Shown here: in pieces, positions 43,885 to 45,586 of the stretch
Layout: every line of letters starts with the position of its first letter
Position numbering within the stretch: position 1 is the first letter of the stretch
Assembly (NCBI RefSeq): GCF_001894885.1
Contig: NZ_BCXB01000001.1
Span: 1-64,000 of the forward strand
Origin: Rhodococcus marinonascens NBRC 14363
GTDB taxonomy: Bacteria > Actinomycetota > Actinomycetes > Mycobacteriales > Mycobacteriaceae
Length of the DNA: 64,000 nt
Reading direction: 5' to 3'
The notes under the pieces: generated by a model
The model's database searches: none
Told to the model about the DNA's origin: nothing
The model's input: only the letters and a program-made list of their open reading frames with translations
Program-made: the position numbers and the translations under genes

Positions 43885-43919
43885 ACCACCCCGGCCAGGT
43901 GGTGTCTGGCCGGGGTGGT
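43885..43919. terminator. Perfect 14-bp hairpin terminator
   Basis: ACCACCCCGGCCAG and CTGGCCGGGGTGGT flank a 7-nt loop, 29 bases after the lipase stop and before the convergent small ORF, so it can serve both. Confidence 0.88.
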
Positions 43920-43949: not shown

Positions 43950-44039
43950 TCACATATTCGCGCACATGTCGCACATCTGACCGCCCGCCATCATCATCTG
44001 GCAGTCCCACCAAGCCTGAAGGTTCGCCATTGGATCCAT
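43950..44039 (-). CDS. Met/Cys-rich 29-aa small protein, candidate metal-binding peptide
   Basis: Unlisted short ORF starting at ATG 44039 with an ideal ribosome site AAGGAG six bases upstream. The product is 29 aa with eight Met and three Cys; its C-terminal half reads CQMMMAGGQMCDMC followed by ANM, including one CxxC. This composition resembles copper-binding peptides, though I see no homology to MymT or other metallothioneins. It is divergent from the blaI-M56 pair, with palindromes in between, and ends 30 bases from the lipase terminator. Translation is well supported by the ribosome site; metal binding is inference. Confidence 0.65.
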   Translation of the reverse strand: MDPMANLQAWWDCQMMMAGGQMCDMCANM

Positions 44040-44084
44040 TGTGAACTCCTTGATTTCGTGTGCTCGGAGATTCTCTCGAATGAT

Positions 44085-44144
44085 CTACGGTCTCCGTACG
44101 TAGATAGTATCTGAGATTGATCAAACTGTCGTTCGGCAGCCGAA
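44085..44144. promoter_or_regulatory. Palindrome cluster between the small ORF and blaI
   Basis: Three dyads lie in the 213-bp divergent gap: ACGG-TCT-CCGT (44087-44097, inside CTACG...CGTAG at 44085-44103), AGATA-G-TATCT (44102-44112) and TTCGG-CAG-CCGAA (44132-44144). BlaI/CopY regulators bind such dyads and usually autoregulate. Which one is used cannot be told from sequence. Confidence 0.45.
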
Positions 44145-44252: not shown

Positions 44253-44627
44253 GTGCGCGTGCGTGGATTCGGGGAACTCGAAGCGGTCGTGATGGACCGG
44301 ATCTGGGACCGTGAGGCTGCGACCACGGTCCGAGAGGTGTTCGACGAACTCAGCGAGCACCGGGAGCTGGCATACACCACGGTGATGTCGACGATGGACA
44401 ACCTCCACCGGAAGGGCTGGCTCGCCCGGGAAAAGACGGGCAAGGCGTTCAGCTACTGGCCCACGCTCACCCGCGAGGAGCACAGTGCCCGGTTGATGCG
44501 CGACGCCTTCGACGGTGGTGGGCGAACCGATCTCGTGATGGCCCATTTCGTTGAACAGATGAGTGACGAGGAGTCCGCCAGTCTCCGCGCGGCTCTGCAG
44601 CGCCTGGCTGCCGAGGATGCGGGATGA
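44253..44627 (+). CDS. BlaI/MecI/CopY-family transcriptional repressor
   Basis: Winged-helix repressor of 124 aa. LEAVVMDRIWDREAATTVREVFDELSEHRELAYTTVMSTMDNLHRKGWL is the typical DNA-binding domain, followed by a C-terminal dimerisation helix. It contains no cysteine, so it lacks the CopY metal site and resembles mycobacterial BlaI (Rv1846c), which is controlled by proteolysis. GTG 44253 follows GGGAGG. The stop overlaps the M56 peptidase start (ATGA), forming a repressor-sensor pair. Confidence 0.88.
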   Translation: MRVRGFGELEAVVMDRIWDREAATTVREVFDELSEHRELAYTTVMSTMDNLHRKGWLAREKTGKAFSYWPTLTREEHSARLMRDAFDGGGRTDLVMAHFVEQMSDEESASLRAALQRLAAEDAG

Positions 44628-45586
44628 CTGTCGCGGCTTGCCTGATTCTCTACAGCTTCGTGGTGGCGGTTCTTGCTCAACCCCTGCTGGTGCGGTTGAC
44701 GCATGGCGGCGTTGCGCCGGGTCTCGGTGTGGCGGCGTGGATGGCCGCGATCGGCAGTATTGCGTTGTCGTGGGCGACCGCAGCGGCCTTGGTCGTCGTG
44801 GAATTGGTGCGCAACGGCGGACGGCCGGCCCGGTCGCTGCTCGGATCCTGCTTCGCGAGCCTTCATGCCGTTGTCAGTGGCCGGGTCGGACTTGTCCTGC
44901 AGATGACGCTGCTGCTGTTGACGGTGTTGGCCGTGCTTGCGTTCTCGGTGGTCGTATGGCGACTGGGCGGCCGTTTGCGGCGTATGCGCAGCAAGACTCA
45001 CGGGCACGCGAAAATGACACGCATGGTCGGTCACCATGTCGCGGGAGTCGATGCGGTAGTCCTCGAGGCTTCCCAACCGGCCGCGTATTGCGTTGCCGGC
45101 AGGCCGAGCGCGATCGTGGTCACCACAGCTGCCCTCGGTGCACTCGATCGTCGCCAACTCGACGCGGTCCTGGCCCACGAACGCGCTCACCTGACCGGAC
45201 GGCACCTACAGATCCTGGCCGTGATTCGGGGACTGGCCGCGAGCCTGCCGCGGATCTCCCTGTTCACCGTCGCCGAGGCGGAGATCGCCCGACTGTTGGA
45301 GATGTGCGCCGACGACCGTGCCGCCCGGGCCCACGGCTCTCGCACCGTGCTGAGTGGGCTGATCGCGCTGTCCGCGACCAGCCCCTTGCCCAGCGGCGCA
45401 ATTGGTGCCACAGGCATCGCCGTGCTCGACCGGGCGGAACGCCTCGCCTCGCCGGCATCTGCCACCGACCGCACGCGTGTCCGAACGTCCCTCGCCGCGG
45501 TGAGCGCACTTATTGCGATCGGGCCTCTGGCCACCGGACTGCTGGCAGCCGCCGGCGTGATGCTGTGCGGACCGATCGCCATGTAG
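44624..45586 (+). CDS. M56-family membrane metallopeptidase (BlaR-like)
   Basis: Integral membrane zinc protease of 320 aa, probable partner that cleaves or inactivates the adjacent repressor. Helices lie near residues 3-20, 40-62 and 86-106, and near the C-terminus. The zinc motif HERAH is in AVLAHERAHLTGRH, followed by EMCADDRAA, which fits the third ligand region. It has no C-terminal penicillin-binding sensor domain, unlike staphylococcal BlaR1, so the inducing signal is unknown. Coupled to blaI by ATGA. Confidence 0.87.
   Translation: MTVAACLILYSFVVAVLAQPLLVRLTHGGVAPGLGVAAWMAAIGSIALSWATAAALVVVELVRNGGRPARSLLGSCFASLHAVVSGRVGLVLQMTLLLLTVLAVLAFSVVVWRLGGRLRRMRSKTHGHAKMTRMVGHHVAGVDAVVLEASQPAAYCVAGRPSAIVVTTAALGALDRRQLDAVLAHERAHLTGRHLQILAVIRGLAASLPRISLFTVAEAEIARLLEMCADDRAARAHGSRTVLSGLIALSATSPLPSGAIGATGIAVLDRAERLASPASATDRTRVRTSLAAVSALIAIGPLATGLLAAAGVMLCGPIAM

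Follow-up and report, generated by a model that had tools for sequence, protein, structure and literature searches.

The BlaI-BlaR1 and MecI-MecR1 systems pair a winged-helix repressor with a membrane protease, and the operators of their repressors are dyads of the TAC...GTA type. CopY, a copper repressor of the BlaI family, carries a metal site made of Cys residues at its C terminus, and small bacterial metallothioneins are represented by SmtA and MymT. BlaI-protease switches and small metal-binding peptides are both known kinds of system; the peptide family reported here, its operator and the coupling of the two look new, and none of the three is described in the titles or opening lines of abstracts among the open-licence literature matches listed.

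The locus lies in the window, that is, the whole stretch of 64,000 nucleotides of Rhodococcus marinonascens that was analyzed. It resembles BlaI-BlaR1 and MecI-MecR1 in its divergent layout, its winged-helix BlaI, its membrane gluzincin with HEXXH and ExxxD motifs, and its operator, again a dyad of the TAC...GTA type; it differs in having a protease without a beta-lactam sensor and with two Cys predicted to face outward, and in its target, here a 29-amino-acid peptide rich in Met and Cys, accompanied in relatives by metal and thiol genes. Like SmtA and MymT, the product is a small Cys-containing peptide that would be expected to bind soft metals, but it is about half their size, has more Met than Cys, has an NLQAWW head, and matches nothing in Pfam or NCBIfam. 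Repressor fold and metal context are shared with CopY, whereas the window unit has a protease partner instead of a metal site in the repressor; the window BlaI lacks the CopY site because there is no Cys at all among its 124 residues.

The reading that we favor, with a probability of about 0.7, is that the locus encodes a soft-metal peptide that is repressed by BlaI and freed when the M56 protease cleaves the repressor. A sequence-only reading of the same DNA had suggested that a BlaI-M56 unit responsive to metals or redox state drives a tiny chelator, and gene neighborhoods lend support to that proposal, with copper, cadmium, and thiol-redox genes lying near the unit in relatives; within it, metal binding, the signal, and cleavage of BlaI are presumptive.

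A Conserved Gene for a 29-Residue Peptide

The peptide gene lies on the reverse strand at 43950-44039, stop included, and its translation is MDPMANLQAWWDCQMMMAGGQMCDMCANM. It encodes eight Met and three Cys, contains CQMMMAGGQMCDMC, closes with tandem stops (TGA-TAG), and is preceded by a ribosome-binding site, AAGGAG (44046-44051, reverse strand), which as read from the sequence stands six bases 5' of the ATG; ORF, ribosome site, and composition are all as the sequence-only reading had given them. Thirty nucleotides past the stop, between the peptide gene and a convergent esterase-like gene (named by eye), stands a GC-rich 14-bp hairpin (43885-43919, reverse strand; -34.1 kcal/mol, z -3.99). 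It had been called a strong terminator at 30 bases' distance; hairpin and distance hold, but there is no T-run, and a simple scan for T-tailed terminators lists none at this place. We regard it as a probable, possibly bidirectional, terminator.

The peptide had also been described as unannotated. The ORF is known from four plasmid records, those of R. opacus B4 pROB01, R. pyridinivorans DNHP-S2, R. pseudokoreensis R79, and R. rhodochrous BX2, and all four indeed lack it in the gene table, with no feature listed at its place; these tables are known to be incomplete. Curated profiles gave no family for five peptides searched against NCBIfam (E 1) or for four searched against Pfam (E 0.1), the known metallothionein and metallochaperone families of these two collections included, and a profile of the peptide family found no match among PDB sequences at E 5.

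Strong copies, defined as places matching at E<=2.2e-6, number 25 and occur in 23 of the 401 genomes of the family sample, across seven genera; 34 of the 401 match at E<=0.1, the other 11 being short partial matches that were left uncounted. Distribution is patchy: of the 28 genomes of the genus, 10 give a match at E<=1, and eight, the window's own among them, hold a strong copy. At the level of the order (397 genomes) there are two genomes with a match, both from the same family and one of them the window's own; at the level of the class (345 genomes) the own genome is joined by G919, from another family, with one short match at which no Met/Cys-rich ORF is found. A scan of named genomes, limited by the degenerate pattern used, gave one peptide locus, in R. 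tibetensis. The peptide region is present on many plasmids; a tblastn search of plasmids with a 36-amino-acid relative gave no match, the low-complexity filter being the likely cause.

Among 17 of the 25 strong copies, pN is lower than pS in 132 of 136 pairs, which are not independent of one another (mean pS 0.53, mean pN 0.21), a substitution pattern that places the gene under purifying selection. Three residues (N6, C13, and M16) are invariant in an alignment of 19 of the 25 copies, and L7, Q8, W10, W11, M17, G20, C23, and C26 are nearly so. A length of only 29 amino acids might suggest a chance reading frame, and ORFs this short are dropped by most gene callers. Against this, the protein is conserved across seven genera with pN<pS, and ribosome site, operator, and layout recur with it; we rejected a chance frame on the conservation and the pN<pS pattern and put its probability at next to nothing. 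As far as comparison of sequences can tell, the ORF is a true, conserved bacterial gene.

Stop codons or frameshifts in close relatives had been named beforehand as one outcome that would refute the sequence-only proposal. Such decay is found in the G014 copy (L014) only, where the ATG is lost and a 2-base insertion causes a frameshift, while the operator and BlaI-M56 are kept and the flanking gene families are those of the window unit. The own genome holds a second copy elsewhere (L013 6958-7047, G000:C6), whose protein is 93% identical, which lacks the operator, and whose similarity is confined to the ORF and roughly 75 bases 3' of it. An expanded form of the peptide, 53 amino acids long and with DMC-type repeats in tandem, occurs at L067 (7013-7174).

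A short ORF rich in Met and Cys codons could instead act as a leader peptide, with ribosome pausing at those codons controlling a downstream gene and the peptide itself having no job. Genes for TlpA, CcdA, or CopC-CopD do start some 40-150 bases past the peptide, on its strand, in L015-L019, L053, L065, and L066, but the peptide gene of the window has no gene after it on its strand, the strong hairpin and the convergent esterase-like gene standing there instead, and for the window a leader was rejected on this ground. The conserved residues, moreover, include N, W, and Q and thus reach beyond Met and Cys, one copy shares the ORF and the bases after it while its upstream region differs, and in L067 the Cys-Met repeats have been expanded in tandem. 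Taken with these observations, a leader is very improbable.

The Divergent BlaI-M56 Pair and a BlaI-Type Operator

Divergent from the peptide gene is an operon on the forward strand, made up of a BlaI/MecI-type repressor (44253-44627, 124 amino acids) and an M56-type membrane metalloprotease (44624-45586, 320 amino acids), the second gene overlapping blaI by 4 bases. The repressor matches Penicillinase_R (PF03965) with an E value of 4.5e-26 and 91.9 bits against a cut-off of 22.6, and its best solved relative is 2g9w, which we take to be Rv1846c, followed by MecI and BlaI. The peptide had been said to face BlaI and an M56 protease: the PF03965 repressor and the HEXXH protease are there, but the family name of the latter is divided, Pfam assigning the window protease to M48 and related plasmid records giving "M56 family."

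An account of BlaR1 (PMC9834060) describes a HEXXH + ExxxD gluzincin signature and gives the cleavage site of BlaR1 itself as Ser283-Phe284. The window protease carries this signature as HERAH and EMCADD, and all 16 aligned proteases share H185, E186, H189, E226, and D230. On the side of the repressor, the Phe of an HF or RF pair is invariant in 21 of 21 aligned BlaI proteins; we presume this to be the P1' Phe of the cleavage position, which we carry over from BlaI of S. aureus. A profile search of PDB sequences with the protease gave one match, an HtpX homolog (E 0.0017), and BlaR1 was not among the matches.

No penicillin-binding sensor domain is present, and none is possible, because nothing of the protease follows its last hydrophobic segment, the last hydrophobic windows reaching residue 320 of 320. 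This bears on the possibility that the locus is a cell-wall or beta-lactam stress switch as in staphylococci, with the peptide serving as a general stress peptide. BlaI and M56 are, to be sure, families of that pathway, and genes for M23, Lnt, and LspA occur in some islands; yet a protease of 320 amino acids has no room for the sensor, the neighbors in relatives are metal and thiol genes, and beta-lactamase is not listed in six plasmid stretches. We consider such a switch improbable here.

Given a BlaR1-like topology with both termini outside, Cys76 and Cys315 of the protease are predicted to face outward. All 16 aligned proteases have a Cys near the C terminus, and 14 of them have another between hydrophobic segments 2 and 3. 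A search for BlaI gave 39 places in the genus; at the 30 of these that were retrieved, the protease carries both Cys at 16 loci, neither at 12, and the loop Cys only at one, with one unreadable. The pair is all-or-none with one exception among the 29 readable loci. We abandoned the notion that the C-terminal Cys marks peptide-linked pairs alone, as 10 of the 16 lie beside more distant BlaI paralogs. Because it is spread in this way across the 30 loci, the Cys pair appears to be a trait of accessory M56 proteases generally; in the other BlaI-M56 pair of the own genome (L120), the protease has neither Cys.

The sequence-only reading had advised a search of relatives for a conserved Met/Cys-rich ORF next to blaI-M56, and the outcome is positive. 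In all seven genus genomes that have a BlaI of at least 75% identity the peptide stands beside it, in G014 as the broken copy, and a strong peptide occurs in one (G021) of the other 21; the hypergeometric p for this co-occurrence is about 7e-6, a hand calculation made on genomes that are related. After these, the highest BlaI identity in the genus is 54%.

Between the divergent units, 43 bases upstream of the ATG, lies a BlaI-type operator, the imperfect palindrome TACTATCTACGTACGGAGACCGTAGAT (44083-44109, reverse strand). Of the palindrome cluster reported earlier for this interval, a palindrome between the units is borne out, but as one near-palindromic site and not a cluster. By its sequence it is a candidate for the dyad operator that BlaI/MecI repressors have upstream of their own gene. 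The consensus of 30 distinct operator sites approaches a 30-base palindrome, ATCTACTATCTACGTACGTAGATAGTAGAT, and in the right half-site, which lay outside the search word, the G and T of GTA are invariant and the A is present in 29 of 30 sites.

The exact 15-base core of the operator occurs at 28 places in 25 of the 401 genomes, and a reversed control at none. Twenty-two of these places have a BlaI or M56 of this kind within 1.5 kb, and six have none so near. Operator and divergent BlaI go together among the peptide copies, both being present in 17 of 25 and neither in eight. There is one exact core site in the own genome, and allowing up to two mismatches adds none; as the reversed control gives four at that tolerance, we give weight to the exact site alone. 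With a single core in the genome, the peptide and the switch itself would therefore be the only visible targets. Counting against the favored reading are the broken G014 copy, the second own copy without an operator, the eight of 25 copies unlinked to BlaI, and the patchy spread within the genus.

The arrangement varies elsewhere. At L065 and L066 another gene, annotated with an iron-dependent repressor domain, stands between BlaI and the operator, a further point against the favored reading. At L053 (8602-8616) one island has a second BlaI-type operator directly 5' of a CcdA-like gene.

Metal and Thiol Genes around the Peptides

The neighbors of the window unit resemble, by eye, an esterase, lysX, and clpC, and since no metal gene adjoining the unit was recognized inside the window, the metal reading rests on relatives. 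There the neighbors include a CopC-CopD fusion, TlpA-type thioredoxins, ResB, and a P-ATPase of the cadmium family TIGR01512 that scores above cut-off; LspA-, CadD-, and CadR/MerR-like neighbors fall below the NCBIfam cut-offs, although plasmid records do use the names LspA and CadD. Further neighbors, on R. opacus B4 pROB01 and related plasmids, are CcdA, a multicopper oxidase, CopC, DUF305, and DUF3105. From composition and neighborhood, the peptide probably binds soft metals such as copper.

Composition varies with neighborhood. Nine distinct peptides lie within 3.3 kb of a cadmium-type ATPase (here, one of about 63% identity or more); all nine carry a CC tail, and their Cys share is higher, whereas among the other nine peptides a CC end is found in one (L021). 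The difference in Cys share has a Mann-Whitney p of 0.0005, for groups that were set by hand and without correction for phylogeny. The split is blurred in places: L015, with no CC tail, lies 6.4 kb from CadD and has a P-ATPase beyond that, L019 has a 39%-identical P-ATPase at 5.1 kb, and L021 has its CC tail without CadD or P-ATPase. If real, such a division of ligands, Met-rich by copper and thiol genes and Cys-rich with a CC tail by the cadmium-type ATPase, would make the choice of metal in minimal peptides directly testable.

In a second class of copies (L020, L060-L064) BlaI is absent, and the peptide is adjoined by an ArsR gene, in divergent orientation, and by a cadmium-type P-ATPase. 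The ArsR protein of L020 has 2jsc (Rv1994c) as its best solved relative, with the Cys-x3-Cys of that protein aligned; we take Rv1994c to be CmtR, the cadmium/lead repressor, so that the likeness to CmtR concerns the regulator of the second class and not that of the window copy. Between the peptide and the divergent ArsR gene in L060-L064, and in variant form in L020, there is a conserved imperfect palindrome, TCAATCGTCATACGGCGATGAT, likely a second metal-responsive operator.

We propose the following course of events for the window unit, in which the steps past the operator sequence are ones that we infer, as they are based on analogy and neighborhood. BlaI would bind the near-palindromic operator between the divergent units and keep both repressed. 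Soft-metal stress, or metal-driven thiol stress, at the cell envelope would activate the M56 protease, which would sense it without a beta-lactam domain and may do so through the two Cys predicted on its outer face. The active protease would cut BlaI on the inner side of the membrane, and the peptide, then made in quantity, would chelate or shuttle cytoplasmic metal, in cooperation with any efflux and thiol-repair genes that are present. The metal bound by the Met-rich window form would probably be Cu(I).

Instead of buffering as a chelator, the peptide might be a metallochaperone or ligand that passes a soft metal to a partner (the P-ATPase, CopC-CopD, or TlpA) or feeds back on the switch. 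Its ligand number is very low (three Cys, eight Met), its conserved non-ligand residues N6, Q8, W10, and W11 suggest a binding face, and transporters and thiol oxidoreductases recur among the neighbors. No partner is visibly co-regulated, however, given the one operator core site in the own genome, and an HMA domain was not detected in the peptides; we find this alternative unlikely.

Related Loci in Sister Genera

Beyond the genus, the same operator occurs near BlaI, M56, TlpA, or small secreted-protein ORFs in genomes of other genera in which the family search gave no match to a window-type peptide. One sister genus (g23, L123-L142) has a separate family of Met/Cys-rich peptides of 21-25 amino acids, MNPMKMLCDWMCSMMASCCQM and its relatives; 17 of 98 genomes have a match (E<=0.01), with up to four copies per genome, some of them beside BlaI. 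In this family pN is lower than pS in 65 of 66 pairs (12 sequences). At five of the seven loci scanned the neighbors include a multicopper oxidase, an HMA-bearing P-ATPase, or an HMA protein, alone or together with a cupredoxin-like gene; L131 and L124, also scanned, have no such metal genes. By their family names, these neighbors would be copper proteins.

A broader interpretation, which we offer tentatively, at somewhat less than even odds, is that a branch of BlaI-M56 switches has turned from beta-lactams to outward sensing of soft metals or metal-thiol stress by way of the Cys pair, which would stand in for a sensor domain, and drives unannotated micro-metallothioneins of 20-55 residues in Rhodococcus and sister genera. 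If true, it would give a function to orphan BlaI-M56 pairs without a beta-lactam sensor and a simple Cys-based trigger, testable by mutation, and it would make peptides of 20-55 residues, under the limit of most gene callers, part of actinobacterial metal defense.

In two Mycolicibacterium plasmid stretches with BlaI-M56 (L118 and L119), the filter used gave no Met/Cys-rich ORF. At L070 (genome G108, genus g29) an exact operator core (1501-1515) and a BlaI of 75% identity (2168-2491) stand about 650 bases apart, and no window-type peptide was found in the G108 genome. Small secreted-looking ORFs, several of them His-rich, lie just past the operator or near BlaI at L073, L079, L124, L129, and L076.
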